Assembly: GCF_011044495.1 (NCBI RefSeq)
Contig: NZ_CP049143.1
Location: 1,798,001-1,862,000 of the forward strand
DNA from: Roseimicrobium sp. ORNL1
Lineage (GTDB): Bacteria > Verrucomicrobiota > Verrucomicrobiia > Verrucomicrobiales > Verrucomicrobiaceae
DNA: 64,000 nucleotides
Reading direction: 5' to 3'
Of this stretch, positions 9,190 through 43,039 are shown in pieces (positions within the stretch are counted from its first letter, which is position 1; every line of letters starts with the position of its first letter). The notes under the pieces were generated by a model that was not told the origin of the DNA, did no database searches, and worked only from the letters and a program-made list of their open reading frames with translations. Position numbers and translations under genes: made by a program.

Positions 9190-11094
9190 ATGAAAAACGA
9201 GAATGCAGAGGCTAACAGCCGCCCGAGACGCCGTCGCTGGCCCTGGGTGCTGCTGGTGTTTGTGCTTCTGCTGGGCGGGGGACTATGGGGGGGCTACGAA
9301 TGGGCCACGGCGAACGCGGTGCGCACGTTGAACAGCCGCCTCGCGGAGAGGAGTCTGTACCTGAGTTACACCTCAAGCTCATGGGTGCCATGGCGCGGCC
9401 TAGGGCTGGAGAACATGGCGCTGTATCATGATGAGGCGCGTACCAAGCCCATCATTTCCCTCAGCACGTTGGACGTCGAACTTCCCTGGCAGGAGATGGC
9501 GCAGAATCGGGAGTTCATCAGCCGGTGGAAAGTGCACGATGCCACGCTGGAACTGCATGATCCGAAGGGAAAGGTGACGCTGGAGCACGTGACGGTGGAC
9601 GCGGTGGTAAAGGACGGGGTCATTGAATACACCAAACTGGATCTGAAACATGGCCCCCGCCTGTTCGCCTTGTCCGGTGAGTTGCATCTGAATACGGACG
9701 AGAAGGGAGGGGAGAAGCCGGGATCGCTGGAGATGGATCTCGACCCCATGCGGTCCATCCTTGATGCGCTGGACTTCAAGAAGGACGCGGGGACGTTCTT
9801 GATCAGTGGCAAGGTATCCTTCGATGCGAGGGTCACGCCCATGGCCTGGAGTGCGGATCTGACCGGTGAAGGTGAGCACGTGGTGTGGCAGGGCGTGCCC
9901 ATGCGAAAGGCCGTGATGAAGACCGCGATGTCCCAGGACGGATTCACGGGTACCTGCAACATCGCCTTTCCTAAGGGCACGACAGATCTGGACTTGAGCC
10001 TCAAGAGCTGGAGAGACGCGCCGATGGTTTTCACGGGGAAGATTGCCGACTCCGGGGGACGCACCAATCAATGCAAAGGCACATACCGCGGGAAGGAAGA
10101 CGTGGTGACGGTGGAGGAGATGCAGGGAAAGGCGAACATGCTGGAGTTCATGGGAAACTTCCCCGCGATGAATGCACAATTGCCCAAGGAGGTGCATGTG
10201 CGTGAATATCCCGACATGGTGATGAAGAACCTCGTGTGGAAGACTGCCGAGGGCACCTGGGCCATGGAGTCTCTGCGTCTGCGGTCGCCTCTGGAACTGA
10301 GTGTGAAGGTGGAAGGACATGAACTCCTCGTGAATCAGTTGAAGGGAGATGTGTCCTACACCGGTGGAGCGTGGAAGTTCGCGGATGTCACCGCGAAGGT
10401 ATTGGGTGGTTCGGTTTCACTCCAGGGCAGACACGACGGCAAGGTGTTGCGTGATGCTTCGATCTCGGTGCAGAACGCGCGCATGGCAGAGTTGAGCCCC
10501 TGGATGGGGGAGAGTGGTTCTTCCTTTGGGAAGGCGCTGGCCTCGCTGAACTACAAAGGTGACTTCGCGGTCGAACCTGAGCACCTCACGGGGTCAGGCT
10601 CGATTCAGATTGAGAATGCACCGACGATGCACGTGCCGTTGCTGGATGCGACCTATACATTGTTTGCTGCGCTCATACCCGGATTGAAGAAGGAGGATGG
10701 CAATGGTGAGATGCGCGGGCAGTTCACCAGCAAGCAGGGCGTGTTGAACTTCTCCAGTTTCCAGGCCAGCGGGGGTTCTATCACGGTGACGGGCGCAGGC
10801 AGCGTGGATTTGGTAAATCACACCATATCAGGCAAGGCTCAGGGAAGACTGCGAGGAGTGGGTGGGGTCGTCACCGCGCCCATCAGCCGATTGATGGAAA
10901 TGGAAGTGAGCGGTCCACTGGATGACATCCGCGTGAAGCCTGCGGGCGATGGGTTGGTCGGCAACGTGGTGGAAGGCACGGTGGATGTGGCGCGCGGTAC
11001 GATCAAAGGAGCAACGAAGGTCACGGGCTCCGTGGTGAAGGAAGGGGTAAAGCTGCCATTTCGTGCGTTGAATTTGTTCCGGAAGAGGGAGTGA
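9190..11094 (+). CDS. AsmA-like inner-membrane-anchored protein (634 aa)
   Basis: The N-terminus has a basic stretch (RPRRRR) and one membrane helix (about residues 17-38); the remaining roughly 590 residues face the periplasm and are beta-rich. The C-terminal part contains the pattern of the AsmA-like C-terminal domain: a short GEMRGQFTSKQGVLNFSSF block, then ITVTGAGSVDLVNHTISG, then SGPLDDIRVKPAG. Such proteins are thought to support lipid transport or outer-membrane assembly. The gene stands alone between pst and mod, divergent from pstS and convergent with modC. It has no recognised enzyme motif. The family call is moderately sure, the function inferred. Confidence 0.75.
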   Translation: MKNENAEANSRPRRRRWPWVLLVFVLLLGGGLWGGYEWATANAVRTLNSRLAERSLYLSYTSSSWVPWRGLGLENMALYHDEARTKPIISLSTLDVELPWQEMAQNREFISRWKVHDATLELHDPKGKVTLEHVTVDAVVKDGVIEYTKLDLKHGPRLFALSGELHLNTDEKGGEKPGSLEMDLDPMRSILDALDFKKDAGTFLISGKVSFDARVTPMAWSADLTGEGEHVVWQGVPMRKAVMKTAMSQDGFTGTCNIAFPKGTTDLDLSLKSWRDAPMVFTGKIADSGGRTNQCKGTYRGKEDVVTVEEMQGKANMLEFMGNFPAMNAQLPKEVHVREYPDMVMKNLVWKTAEGTWAMESLRLRSPLELSVKVEGHELLVNQLKGDVSYTGGAWKFADVTAKVLGGSVSLQGRHDGKVLRDASISVQNARMAELSPWMGESGSSFGKALASLNYKGDFAVEPEHLTGSGSIQIENAPTMHVPLLDATYTLFAALIPGLKKEDGNGEMRGQFTSKQGVLNFSSFQASGGSITVTGAGSVDLVNHTISGKAQGRLRGVGGVVTAPISRLMEMEVSGPLDDIRVKPAGDGLVGNVVEGTVDVARGTIKGATKVTGSVVKEGVKLPFRALNLFRKRE

Positions 11095-11126: not shown

Positions 11127-11293
11127 ATCGGAATGGCCGCAAAAGAACGCAAAGAACACAAAAGTTTACTGAGGTGGCCGCTGTGACGTGGTGGCTCGAC
11201 CGAAGCAAGAAGCTGGCAGCGTGAGCCCTGCCCTGATGCATCCTCTTGGTTCTCTTTTTTGCGCTCTTTGCGTTCTTTTGCGGCTATTCCGAT
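11127..11293. repeat. Inverted-repeat element, GCCGCAAAAGAACGCAAAG family, without cargo gene
   Basis: Left arm 11127-11164 and right arm 11254-11293 are complementary over nearly 38 bases. Both contain ATCGGAAT(G/A)GCCGC followed by AAAAGAACGCAAAGA. The 89-base centre has no gene. The left arm is almost identical to the left arm of the gene-bearing element at 25516-26120. The right arm runs into modC and supplies its last codons and its TAG stop. It lies 33 bases after the stop of the AsmA-like gene. Confidence 0.9.
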
Positions 11294-23523: not shown

Positions 23524-25407
23524 CTACACCTTCCGCCACCGCTGGAAGCTCTCGATGGCTTCGTAGTTCGCCAGACCGAGGGAGTCGTACTGGTGTGCCG
23601 TGTGCTGGTTCACCTTGGTGACTTCGCCTTCCATGCTGGTAAGGGACTGGTAGCGGGTCAGCGCGCGCGCCTTGCGCTCGAGCTGCATGGGGCTGGCGGG
23701 TACGGCCATGTCGATTTCCCAAGGCTCCAGAGCCTTCTCACGACCGCGGTAGAGCCAGACGGAGCAGGCAGCCACCCAGTCCTCGTGCTGGAGTTCGGCG
23801 AGCGCCTGCTCCAAGGCTCGGAAGCTGAGTGCGGCCACGCTTGAAGGGTCAGCGGCATCACCGGTGACGTAGATTTGGTGCGGGCGGAATTCCTTGAGCA
23901 GTTTCACCACTTCCGCAGTGTCTTCCTGACCCAGCTTGAAGCGGCGATAGCGGCCGCGCTCGTAGAAGGGGAGATTGAGGAATTGGACCTTCTCCTGACC
24001 CACTCCCAAGGCGTGAGCGGCGTCGCGGAGTTCGCCACGCAGAATCAAGCTCTTGAGCTGGCGCAGGGCGGGCTGGTCTTCGCCGAATTCTCCCTTCTCT
24101 TCCAGCAGGCGCAGGATGTGGCGGGCGTAGTCCGTCTGCTCATCCCAGCCCTCGGGCGAGAGGGTGGCGATTTCCTGGAGGGTGCTGGCGAACTTGTCCG
24201 CTTCACTGTCGGCCACGCGCAGGCTGCCGCTGCTCATGGCGACGAGGCGGATGTCATGACCCTGCTCCACGAGGCGGTCGACGGTACTGCCGAGGCTCAC
24301 CACCGCGTCCTGGGGCTCCGGGCTCAGGATGAGGGAGCGCTTCGGGTACGGCTTGGCGCGCTCGGGGCGGAAGGTGTCGTCCGCATTAGGCTTGCCACCG
24401 GGCCATCCGGAGATGGTGTGCTGCAGCTGGTTGAAGATATTGATGTTCAGCTTGTACGCCGGGCCCTGCTCGCTCAGCAGGTCGGAGAGACCATGCTCGT
24501 TGTAGTCCTCGTCGATGAGCTTGAGCACGGGGCGGTTCATGCTGGCGGAGAGCCAGCACACCGCGCGGCGGGTTTCGCTGGGGGACCACTTCACAGGACC
24601 GACGAGCCATGGCAGCTTCACGCGAGTCAGTTCACGCGAGGCGCCCTTGTCGACGAAGAAGCGTGCTTCTGGATGCTCCTGCAGGAAGGAGGCGGAGACA
24701 GCGTCTGTCACGGCGCCTTCCACGGCTTTGGCCACCACGCCGGCCTTGTTTTCACCCCAGGCCATCAGCACAATTTTTTTGGCGCGCAGGATGGTGGAGA
24801 CACCCATGGTGATGGCGAAGCGCGGCACGTTTTCTTCACCACGGAAGTCCGCCGCGGCGTCTTGGCGCGTGATGCGGTCCAGCGTGATGCGGCGCGTGAG
24901 CGACTCGCGGGAGGAGCCGGGTTCGTTGAAGCCGATGTGGCCCGTACGACCAATGCCCAGAATCTGGAAGTCCACACCACCAGCGGCATCGATCATCTCC
25001 TCATACGCGCGGCAGTGTTCGAAGACTTGATCGCCGGGCACCAAGCCGCTGGGGAGGTGGATGTTTTCCTTCGGGATGTCGATGTGATCAAACAGCTGAT
25101 CACACATGAAGCGGTGGTAGCTCTCTGGGTGCTCCGGCGTGAGGCCGTAGTATTCGTCCAGGTTGAAGGTCACCACATTCTTGAAGCTCAGCCCTTCCTC
25201 GCGATGCAGACGGATGAGCTCGCGATAAAACGAAACGGGTGTGGAACCCGTGGCCAGACCAAGAATGGCATTCTTCTTTTTCGCCGCGCGGGAAGTGATG
25301 AGTTCCTTCACCTCCTGGGCGAGAGCAGCAGCGGCAGCAGCCGAGCTGTCATGAATGATGGTCGGTATCTTTTCGTAGGCCTCGGCGGCGGAGCGGCGCT
25401 TGGACAT
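23524..25407 (-). CDS. nagB: Glucosamine-6-phosphate deaminase-like protein fused to a degenerate LmbE/PIG-L domain
   Basis: 627 residues, more than twice a typical NagB. Residues 15-290 are NagB-like: LATGSTP (51-57), FNLDEYYG with Asp84, and GIGRTGHIGFNEP (151-163) with His157 and Glu162. At the place of E. coli catalytic Asp141 there is Thr155. Residues 350-600 resemble the LmbE/PIG-L deacetylase fold, but the usual HPDDE metal motif reads SPEPQD (362-367), so metal ligands are changed. The NagB-LmbE architecture is known in Bacteroidetes relatives. The reaction would convert glucosamine-6-phosphate to fructose-6-phosphate and ammonia, if it is active. Confidence 0.85.
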   Translation of the reverse strand: MSKRRSAAEAYEKIPTIIHDSSAAAAAALAQEVKELITSRAAKKKNAILGLATGSTPVSFYRELIRLHREEGLSFKNVVTFNLDEYYGLTPEHPESYHRFMCDQLFDHIDIPKENIHLPSGLVPGDQVFEHCRAYEEMIDAAGGVDFQILGIGRTGHIGFNEPGSSRESLTRRITLDRITRQDAAADFRGEENVPRFAITMGVSTILRAKKIVLMAWGENKAGVVAKAVEGAVTDAVSASFLQEHPEARFFVDKGASRELTRVKLPWLVGPVKWSPSETRRAVCWLSASMNRPVLKLIDEDYNEHGLSDLLSEQGPAYKLNINIFNQLQHTISGWPGGKPNADDTFRPERAKPYPKRSLILSPEPQDAVVSLGSTVDRLVEQGHDIRLVAMSSGSLRVADSEADKFASTLQEIATLSPEGWDEQTDYARHILRLLEEKGEFGEDQPALRQLKSLILRGELRDAAHALGVGQEKVQFLNLPFYERGRYRRFKLGQEDTAEVVKLLKEFRPHQIYVTGDAADPSSVAALSFRALEQALAELQHEDWVAACSVWLYRGREKALEPWEIDMAVPASPMQLERKARALTRYQSLTSMEGEVTKVNQHTAHQYDSLGLANYEAIESFQRWRKV

Positions 25408-25611
25408 GGTCGTAGAGTGAGGTGGAAAGCGAACGTGCGTGCGTGCGAGCCGCCAACATCACGAGCGGCTGGCACATTGCAAGTGGCGGGGTGACGTCAG
25501 GGGAGAGGTAGCGCGATCGGAATGGCCGCAAAAGAACGCAAAGAGCGCAAAAAGTGATGAGGTCCTGGGTGGTGTTGTGTATTGGAGGGGTGGAGTACTG
25601 CTTGGGCATAG

Positions 25612-26016
25612 TTATCCGCGATGGGAATCATCTCGGGATTGGTCCTGCGACAATGCGTACTTTCTGATCTGGAACTTGTAGGAGCCGAAGTTCATGAGAA
25701 GGCCGTGCTCGATACGCGTGGACTTTAGATAGCCAAGTAATTGAGCGGCGTGTTGCTGGAGCAAAGTGCTCACTGCCTTCAGTTCCACCAAGATAACACC
25801 TTCAATCAGGAGGTCCGTGAAGTACTCCCCGACCACCGTGCCATCTTCATCCAAAACGGACACAGGCTGCTGTTGTCCTACCAACAACCCTTGTTTCCGA
25901 AGACGGTGCGCCAAGGCATTCTCATACACTTTTTCCAAGTGCCCATGCCCATGATACAAATGGATATCATAGGCCGTCTGCCGCACCAAGTTGCATAGCT
26001 CATTGATGGAACGCAT
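25612..26016 (-). CDS. GxxExxY protein (PD-(D/E)XK-like fold)
   Basis: 134 residues. GHLEKVY at 25-31 gives Gly25, Glu28 and Tyr31, the GxxExxY signature. GEYFTDLLIEGVILVELKAV at 63-82 holds Asp68 and the E-x-K pair Glu78/Lys80, the PD-(D/E)XK nuclease-fold arrangement; QHAAQLLGYL follows as the usual helix. These proteins are widespread, occur in many near-identical copies in some genomes, and have no settled function. The gene is centred in an inverted-repeat element and has a promoter-like sequence inside the element, so it looks like self-contained cargo. The nuclease fold is known from family analyses; activity is not shown. Confidence 0.9.
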   Translation of the reverse strand: MRSINELCNLVRQTAYDIHLYHGHGHLEKVYENALAHRLRKQGLLVGQQQPVSVLDEDGTVVGEYFTDLLIEGVILVELKAVSTLLQQHAAQLLGYLKSTRIEHGLLMNFGSYKFQIRKYALSQDQSRDDSHRG

Positions 26017-26024
26017 GGAGCAAA

Positions 26025-26054
26025 TAGATATGCCCAGCCATTAGGTCCTGGCAA
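26025..26054 (-). promoter_or_regulatory. Promoter inside the repeat element for the GxxExxY gene
   Basis: On the minus strand, TTGCCA (26049-26054) and TATCTA (26025-26030) are separated by 18 bases. Transcription would begin about eight bases from the -10, almost at the ATG (26016), so the message would be leaderless or nearly so; no Shine-Dalgarno sequence is seen. Confidence 0.4.
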
Positions 26055-26150
26055 ATGCCTGCAAAACTTTTTCAGCCGTTCATTAATTTTTGCGCTCTTT
26101 GCGTTCTTTTGCGGCCATTACCATCACTCACCACCCCAAAGAGCGTTGCG

Positions 26151-26846
26151 TCACTCCTGCCAGTCCGCCGCCGTGCCCACGCTCTTGGTCTTGCTCAGGC
26201 GGTTGCCGCGTCGGGCATCAGCGACGGCGAGCATGGTGGCTTCGCAGGCGTCGGCGATGATGTCGAAGCGCTCGGTGGAGATCCATTCCTTCTTCACCAT
26301 CCAGGTGCCACCGACACCGACCACGGGCTTGAAAGGAAGGTACTCGGGGAAGGTTTCCAAGGTGATGCCGCCGGTGGGCATGAAGCGCATGTTGGGGAAG
26401 GGGCCGTGGAGCGCTTTCAGCATCTTGATGCCGCCGCTGGCTTCTGCGGGGAAGAATTTCACGCATTCCAAGCCGAGGTTCGCGGCCAGCATGACTTCCG
26501 TGGCCGTGGTGGCGCCGGGGATGATGAGCACCTGCCGGGCCTGGCAGTGACGCACGAGTTCGGCATCGATGCCTGGGGTCACGATGAACTGCGCTCCGGC
26601 GGCGATGGCTTCATCCGCCTGAGCCGGGGTGAGCACCGTGCCGGCGCCGACGAGCAGGCCTTCCTTGGCGAAGGCGGCCATGCGCTTCAGAATCTCCAGG
26701 GCGGCGGGCGTGCGGAGGGTGACTTCCGCGCAGGGCAGGCCGCCGTCCAGCAGCGCATTGGCCAGAGGCTCAGCATGGGACACGTTTTCCAGGATGATGG
26801 CGGGGACCACGCCCAGTTGCTCAATGCGAAGGAGATGCTCGTGCAT
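26151..26846 (-). CDS. eda: KDPG/KHG aldolase
   Basis: 231 residues. The Schiff-base lysine is Lys129 in GLECVKFFPAEA, and the general acid/base pair is Glu41 and Arg45 in AEVTLRTPAAL; GAGTVL and the MPTGGI phosphate-binding loop complete the active site of the class I TIM-barrel. The enzyme splits 2-keto-3-deoxy-6-phosphogluconate to pyruvate and glyceraldehyde-3-phosphate in the Entner-Doudoroff route or in hexuronate degradation. No edd or KDG kinase lies beside it. It is transcribed alone on the minus strand, with the repeat element just after its stop. Confidence 0.92.
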   Translation of the reverse strand: MHEHLLRIEQLGVVPAIILENVSHAEPLANALLDGGLPCAEVTLRTPAALEILKRMAAFAKEGLLVGAGTVLTPAQADEAIAAGAQFIVTPGIDAELVRHCQARQVLIIPGATTATEVMLAANLGLECVKFFPAEASGGIKMLKALHGPFPNMRFMPTGGITLETFPEYLPFKPVVGVGGTWMVKKEWISTERFDIIADACEATMLAVADARRGNRLSKTKSVGTAADWQE

Positions 26847-28302: not shown

Positions 28303-28361
28303 TGGTGCGGCGGTCTGATTTTCGGACCGCTAATAGCAGCTAACGAACGCTGATTTTTTGG

Positions 28362-43008: not shown

Positions 43009-43039
43009 AGCCGCAAAAGAACGCAAAAAACGCAAAGAA
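43009..43039 (+). repeat. Solo arm of the GCCGCAAAAGAACGCAAAG repeat family
   Basis: One orientation only: AGCCGCAAAAGAACGC then AAAAAACGCAAAGAA. It matches the left arm of the elements at 11127 and 25516. No inverted partner was found nearby, so it is a remnant or a single insertion, about 60 bases after purQ. Confidence 0.8.

Follow-up and report, generated by a model that had tools for sequence, protein, structure and literature searches.

Two inverted arms enclose a complete GxxExxY gene in the window, the stretch of 64,000 nucleotides from Roseimicrobium sp. ORNL1 analysed here, and the question raised by this locus is what ties such a gene to such arms. The first-pass annotation proposed a transposon-like unit, with gene-less copies as its non-autonomous derivatives. 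GxxExxY is a named family that is barely studied and has no settled role, and a search of the open-access literature found no link between this family (PF13366, TIGR04256) and repeats. We propose, with a probability of roughly 0.6, that GxxExxY serves, as a dedicated enzyme, an interspersed palindromic repeat of its own, in an arrangement resembling that of REPIN and RAYT, with an unrelated RecB/Cas4-like putative nuclease as the enzyme.

The unit in the window and its protein

The features of the window are listed below, with strands in brackets.

25515–25560 (+): left arm with the core GGAATGGCCGCAAAAGAACGCAAAGAGCGCAAAAA; 46 of 46 nt are the same in the sister species G002
25612–26016 (−): GxxExxY gene, 134 aa, predicted PD-(D/E)XK fold, defined by an ORF and profile matches
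26080–26125 (−): right arm, an inverted copy of the left arm, with few differences in G002
11127–11293 (no strand): gene-less element, an inverted pair of window-type arms
43009–43039 (+): solo window-type arm, with a diverged counterpart at the aligned place in G002
28326–28354 (+): arm-like solo copy belonging to a second repeat family (CGCTAAT type, ACCGCTAATAGCAGCTAACGAACGCTGAT), with 3 mismatches

The arms of the gene-bearing unit are 46 nt each, 91% complementary and separated by 519 nt. The unit is bordered on one side by an ORF in which Glucosamine_iso and PIG-L domains occur and on the other by a KDPG aldolase gene; a 627-aa ORF at 23524–25407 (−) joins glucosamine-6-phosphate isomerase and PIG-L deacetylase domains in one frame. 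The initial reading of one complete gene between two inverted arms, of the same arms without a gene and of a solo arm held at all three places. Matches to the 15-nt arm core with up to three mismatches numbered 8 in the window (1.39 expected; none of 100 shuffles reached 8). Five of these were exact and every one fell inside the described arms, and the remaining three, each with three mismatches, are probably due to chance. Folded as single-stranded DNA, the gene-less pair at 11127–11293 formed a long hairpin (−46.3 kcal/mol, z −7.1; one pair folded). A promoter-like sequence of its own had also been ascribed to the gene, and this was not borne out by a scan of 25480–26180, which covers the sigma-70 type alone and returned 0 matches with 0.7 expected by chance. 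Rfam gave no match at gathering score between window positions 10500 and 44000, which argues against a known RNA in this region.

Profile searches assigned the window protein to TIGR04256 GxxExxY (2e-32, 111.9 bits, cut-off 35) and PF13366 PDDEXK_3 (4e-30, 104.9 bits, cut-off 22). These were its only family matches, and neither a HUH nor a Y1 domain was found. The PD-(D/E)XK-like core first read from D68, E78 and K80 agrees with the PF13366 match, and D68, E78-x-K80 and Q92xxxY96 were invariant among 23 aligned relatives; we take this set of D, ExK and QxxxY to be that of the RecB/Cas4 branch. The AlphaFold2 model (pLDDT 93.4, pTM 0.84) had structural neighbours that were mostly PD-(D/E)XK proteins, with middling scores: AdnA, Cas4 SSO0001, lambda-type exonucleases, restriction enzymes and Hjc. 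The best Foldseek E-values were those of an AdnA nuclease chain (5e-4) and Cas4 SSO0001 4ic1 (2e-3), and the latter was also a middling match in VIA (Z 9.3, rmsd 7.8 Å over 110 residues). Another neighbour, Rep15, is not known to be a nuclease. Sequence relatives with a solved structure yielded no credible match, the one hit having an E-value of 0.53. The GxxExxY protein of the window is therefore predicted to belong to the PD-(D/E)XK superfamily and is a putative nuclease. It resembles the RecB/Cas4/lambda-exonuclease branch in its predicted fold and in the invariant D, ExK and QxxxY, and differs from it in standing alone, in its length of 134 aa and in its association, which is with dispersed repeats and not with CRISPR or recombination. 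With a single cysteine, it would not hold a Cas4-type Fe-S cluster.

Arms and GxxExxY genes in the source genome and a sister species

The source genome (G000) is a single contig of 7.96 Mb. The genome search for arms that had been suggested as a check returned 60 copies of the 25-nt arm core with up to three mismatches (31 forward, 29 reverse) and none with the reversed-pattern control. They formed 19 inward-facing pairs with total lengths of 127–982 nt; one of the 19 carried a GxxExxY gene, that of the window, and tblastn inside the other 18 found no remnant of this gene. Within 1.2 kb, 19 of 21 neighbouring arm pairs faced inward, 1 faced outward and 1 was in tandem. About 25 arms were solo, since 3 of the 28 unpaired entries were a duplicate, an arm paired elsewhere or a chance match in coding sequence. 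An alignment of 64 distinct arm rows showed a conserved block of about 34 nt, running from GGAATGGCC (GGAATGGCCGCAAAAGAACGCARAG) to CAAAA, with abrupt ends and unrelated flanks.

G000 has four GxxExxY genes. Window-type arms surround that of the window only, each of the other three lies between its own, different inverted arms, and one gene was found per arm family examined. A single copy per repeat family is usual for RAYTs. One paralogue has a CGCTAAT-type arm that occurs in 66 copies in G000 (control 1), and the family's own GxxExxY gene is found at G000:5837470-5837811, 4.0 Mb from the copy at window 28326–28354. The first-pass annotation had held that GxxExxY genes without the window's arms would speak against its proposal. 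Taken literally, the three paralogues are such genes; as they have inverted arms of their own, the absence of the window's arms does not refute the association of gene and arm. No PADLOC anti-phage model matched the window protein or paralogue L032 at E 0.1, and partial matches were recorded for L031 and L033 at E 0.02 and 0.04.

The unit is also found in the sister species G002, at the same locus (6.0 kb aligned at 86.6% DNA identity), an arrangement that had been expected to count against movement. Comparison of the window's gene between the two genomes gave a dN of 0.052 and a dS of 1.21, which is near saturation, and the dN/dS of 0.04 indicates strong purifying selection. Together with the shared locus and the identical left arm, this shows that the gene-bearing unit is old and selected. 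From the sequences compared, gene-less units appear less stable. Eleven sites of G000 were queried and 9 could be placed in G002, with strongly diverged junctions. The element was cleanly absent from G002 at one site (30 nt, against 206 nt in G000), and three sites had a shared or diverged arm pair. Another site was gene-less in G000 (L005, G000:1915301-1915436) and gene-bearing in G002 (L260, gene at G002:C19:67800-68180), the G002 unit having a different arm subtype (GCCGCAAAAAGACGCAAAAA) from the L005 pair. Of the others, one had another arm type, one unrelated sequence without arms, and two aligned on one flank only; none of the nine gave an exact empty site.

The position of the arms is relevant to what they do. 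Few of them fall within long ORFs (16 of 59, compared with 1623 of 2000 random positions), and 16 of 39 sites are between convergent genes, so that a role in transcription termination could also be possible. This placement, and the identity of the left arm over 46 nt in G002 despite a dS of 1.2, would suit arms that are binding sites for self-regulation or genome upkeep (a terminator, or a landmark for replication or repair), with copies maintained by the host and not spread by the enzyme. We consider this explanation unlikely, if one to be taken seriously: it accounts neither for the sharp boundaries of the arms in unrelated flanks nor for the fact that paralogues have dispersed repeats of their own (60 and 66 copies in two G000 families).

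A conventional transposon would have the arms as its terminal inverted repeats, GxxExxY as its transposase and the gene-less pairs as cut-and-paste MITE derivatives. The likeness to an insertion sequence with MITEs is clear in the inverted ends around one gene and in the gene-less copies that share them, and both the L005/L260 site and the site of 206 and 30 nt can be read in the same way. The GxxExxY unit differs from an insertion sequence in having no known transposase family, one gene per G000 arm family and no target duplication. Direct repeats at the 19 pairs had a mean of 2.16 nt, against 2.08 nt with shuffled partners, and the longest was 5 nt (two pairs), a comparison that leaves room for short or decayed duplications; some known insertion-sequence families produce none. 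GxxExxY is also nearly absent from plasmid and phage collections: tblastn with paralogue L032 matched 7 of 72,556 plasmids and 0 of 50,697 phage records, and a motif scan (A2) of IMG/VR left 1 confirmed locus. Purifying selection, the lack of target duplication, one gene per arm family and the same locus in G002 argue against an actively jumping transposon, as do the different arms of the four G000 genes and the 18 pairs lacking any remnant of the window's gene. The initial proposal stands in its description of a unit whose arms recur in gene-less copies and is disfavoured where it implies active jumping. We regard a conventional transposon as improbable; an arrangement like that of REPIN and RAYT suits the data better than a transposon accompanied by MITE derivatives.

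PD-(D/E)XK homing endonucleases are a further case of a small nuclease gene associated with a presumed target sequence, and the L005/L260 site might be explained if the nuclease cut gene-less arm pairs and repair through arm homology copied the gene in. The genome G030, where another arm pair lies within 0.7 kb of a gene-bearing unit, would be in line with such a conversion. Many filled arm pairs would then be expected, yet only 1 of the 19 pairs in G000 carries a gene, and the arm subtype of the G002 unit is not that of the G000 pair at the same site. The target-like arms of GxxExxY, unlike those of a homing endonuclease, lie on both sides of the gene, are inverted and occur in multiple copies without it. 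Homing-type conversion is accordingly a doubtful account of the locus.

Inverted arms, heptamers and the match between arm and protein

To place these results in the family, we took the GxxExxY loci with the highest scores in each genome or scan, a choice that leaves weakly matching members under-represented. Among further genes from a family search, 23 of 29 lay between inverted repeats (700-nt flanks compared, E ≤ 0.01). Scanning one genome per species, we obtained a set of named loci, the best 80 of at least 578 matches, whose record titles included Verrucomicrobiota, Bacteroidota, Acidobacteria, Planctomycetes, Chloroflexi, Cyanobacteria, Proteobacteria and others, with one Methanosarcinales MAG contig among the loci listed. 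In these best 80 of at least 578, the association of gene and arm seen in the window recurred in many phyla. Scoring the best inverted repeat between the 300 nt upstream and the 300 nt downstream of the gene, with a threshold of 30, we found a repeat across 62 of the 77 usable named loci (3 of the 80 had short flanks); shifted windows within those loci gave 4 of 407 and swapped flanks 12 of 227, and the median scores were 41, 19 and 19, respectively. In the same named set, 64 of 79 GxxExxY genes were flanked in this way, compared with 1 of 83 other ORFs of 100–260 aa. The low counts in shifted, swapped and other-ORF controls, and the empty reversed control in G000, argue against chance or low complexity as the source of the arms.

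The first full set of best-scoring loci had 131 of 161 genes flanked by inverted repeats (67 of 82 from whole genomes, 64 of 79 named), after 5 of 166 had been dropped for a short flank or an identical protein. Held-out loci gave 52 of 60, against 12 of 238 with swapped flanks. Over all best-scoring loci examined, 183 of 221 GxxExxY genes were between inverted repeats and 38 had none scoring at least 30. The units were short, with a median of 531 nt. Recurrence of the flanking arm elsewhere in the genome was tested for three arm families. A flank holding its own palindrome, on one or both sides, was found at 26 of 131 genes and at 0 of 131 with shuffled flanks. A layout of palindrome, gene and palindrome, in which each flank has its own palindrome, was observed at L147, L201, L086, L080, L083, L091, L110 and L113.

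The arms share a grammar of heptamers. Arm pairs contained 4.41 CRCNNNG units on average, compared with 0.63 in shuffles, and 94 of the 131 flanked genes had at least three. Their starts were mostly 8, 9 or 10 nt apart (107, 145 and 33 cases), and the sequence before them was most often TTAAC (22), TGAAC (9) or TTCAC (8). Examples of tandem heptamers are TTAACCACAGAGG-CACAGAG, ACCGCCAAG-ACGCCAAG-ACGCCAAG and ACCACGACGG-CACGACGG, and related units in other clades are CAGGATT, CGCTAAT, CACGGAA and GCAGAGG. Mirrored heptamer arrays were present on both flanks of 34 of 79 genes and 0 of 83 control ORFs (named loci, best 80 of at least 578).

The arrays also occur together with the gene. TIGR04256 was detected in 228 of the 387 genomes of a phylum sample, and a three-heptamer pattern was found at least three times in 101 of these 228, compared with 7 of the 159 negative genomes (odds ratio 17, P 2e-20); the reversed control gave 9 positive and 0 negative genomes. 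At one genome per genus the median P was 2e-8 (worst 2e-6 in 200 draws), which argues against a kinship artefact in presence and absence. The other 127 positive genomes had fewer than three arrays, among them the window's own genome with 0, because its arm variant does not fit the three-heptamer pattern. The seven negative genomes with at least three arrays (G386 with 33, G345 with 15, G365 with 12 and four with 3–4) may represent gene loss, incomplete assembly or counter-evidence.

Within the family, the arm type goes with the protein subfamily. In 59 family genomes, window-type arms were present in at least 2 copies in G000 (60), G002 (28), G030 (25) and, with 2 each, G022, G026, G040, G049 and G051. 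These are 8 of the 16 genomes that contain the window's subfamily (a protein sharing at least 53% identity with that of the window), compared with 0 of the 43 without it (P 6e-6 with a two-arm threshold picked after the counts were seen; rank test P 0.002). The other 8 of the 16 have fewer than 2 such arms, and G007, with a 50-aa fragment of 70% identity that was left out, was counted among the genomes without the subfamily. CAGGAT-type arms had a median of 32 in the 21 genomes with the corresponding clade (at least 51% identity), against 2.5 in the other 38 (P 1e-7). The exceptions were 4 of these 38 genomes (G013, G003, G020, G037), with 22–65 arms; arm-rich genomes with no detected cognate gene, these four included, possibly reflect orphan repeats, gene loss or incomplete assemblies.

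Similarity between proteins was correlated with similarity between their arms over 131 genes (r 0.436, 0 of 500 permutations as high), and separately in 64 named loci from the best 80 of at least 578 (0.19) and in the 67 others (0.49), with no permutation as high in either. On the 78 rows with usable spacers, the Mantel r was 0.385 for the arm and −0.001 for the spacer between arm and gene; the arm therefore follows the protein beyond the shared descent of neighbouring DNA. By subset, the spacer gave 0.047 in the named loci (best 80 of at least 578) and 0.087 in the whole-genome loci (39 of 500 permutations reached this value). For the 50 nt outside the arms, r was −0.005 overall and 0.097 in the named subset (best 80 of at least 578; 1 of 500 as high), so arm boundaries were not always fully captured. 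The overall values for spacer and outside sequence argue against mere co-inheritance of flanking DNA. Mapped on the protein tree, arm classes required 57 changes, compared with a mean of 88.4 and a minimum of 81 in 1000 label shuffles (120 rows). That GxxExxY is a passenger hitch-hiking between arms spread by another enzyme such as a RAYT, as the known dispersed palindromic repeats served by a RAYT in trans might suggest, is very improbable, given that the protein follows the arm sequence and not the adjacent spacer and that, for two arm families, dispersal goes with the cognate subfamily.

The match extends to single positions. Base 5 of the heptamer was tied to residues 8–9 in the N-terminal helix. 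A prediction rule fixed before 60 new loci were fetched, reading residue 9 first and then residue 8, was right at 22 of 27 held-out loci (P 0.001); 2 of the 29 rows gave no prediction, and 23 of the 52 flanked held-out loci were excluded, as they contained at most two CRCNNNG units. Residue 8 alone (T with G, A with A), a simplification made after the held-out rows had been seen, was right in 50 of 54 cases in the first set and 26 of 27 held out, 76 of 81 in total. T or A occupies residue 8 in 81 of 123 rows and the other 42 (S, G and others) give no prediction; rows with S were mixed at base 5 (18 A, 14 G). The other columns tested, columns 7–10 left out, predicted base 5 at 74% at most. An independent-pairs test of residue 8 against base 5 was not significant, with 1 pair on supported branches and 7 on all, on a tree that is poorly resolved because the protein is so short. 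Independence from phylogeny therefore rests on the 74% ceiling of the other columns.

A proposed pairing of repeat and enzyme and its relation to known systems

Under our preferred reading of GxxExxY as the dedicated enzyme of its own repeat, each subfamily would recognise its own arm, a tandem of CRCNNNG or a variant with one unit per 8–10 nt, often after TTAAC and mirrored on the opposite side. The gene would be flanked by the arms that its product recognises, with tens of gene-less copies per genome, many of them inward-facing intergenic pairs able to fold into hairpins. The enzyme would bind the hairpin and cut or nick it, probably while the DNA is single-stranded at replication; gene-less units might in this manner be copied or moved in trans, and the gene itself would be kept by vertical descent. 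Direct binding of the arms by GxxExxY is strongly implied, cleavage and dispersal of the arms are inferred with moderate strength, and a use of single-stranded hairpins is weakly supported.

Two papers (PMC3116915, PMC3733652) describe the repeats of the RAYT/REPIN system as short, palindromic, extragenic and hairpin-capable, arranged in inverted doublets, and RAYT genes as flanked by repeats or terminal inverted repeats, with particular RAYTs near particular repeat groups. The unit studied here resembles a REPIN or REPtron, including its TIRtron variant, in its hairpin-capable inverted doublets dispersed between genes and in an enzyme gene flanked by repeats. It differs in its enzyme, which in a REPtron is the RAYT (TnpA-REP), a Y1 HUH transposase, and here is a predicted PD-(D/E)XK protein without a HUH or Y1 match, and also in the tandem heptamers of its arms, with their period of 8–10 nt in units of median 531 nt. 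The GTAG foot of REP is missing from the consensus of the conserved 34-nt block in the window's arm family (64 arm rows). Given the lack of a HUH/Y1 match, and of GTAG in the window's arms, we read the unit as a parallel system on a PD-(D/E)XK nuclease and not as a member of the REPtrons. By its parts, GxxExxY with its arms fits no known kind, and by its architecture the REPtron is nearest.

The results point to a partnership of repeat and enzyme that is widespread and apparently unrecognised. We lean, by somewhat more than even odds, towards the broader view that GxxExxY and its arms constitute a second, independently evolved prokaryotic class of repeat plus enzyme, present in many bacterial phyla and perhaps in Archaea, in which a minimal RecB/Cas4-like nuclease would read heptamers through its first helix (residue 8 to base 5) and maintain or spread its own palindromes. 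If so, unexplained short repeats in many phyla would gain an origin, interspersed orphan repeats like TTAACCACAGAGGCACAGAG would in many cases be explained, and bacteria would have a parallel to REPIN/RAYT built on an unrelated enzyme. The 183 genes with arms would amount to a ready-made protein–DNA recognition code, of which a first base–residue rule passed a held-out check, and the matched pairs open to experiment the question of whether DNA can be moved by a bare PD-(D/E)XK nuclease.

Frames of about 275–300 aa at L093 (G041:C88), G017:C256 and G042:C44 carry a tandem of two GxxExxY domains. The one examined, L093, had no flanking arms (inverted-repeat scores of 16 and 14) and may be a fused dimer that no longer depends on the repeats.
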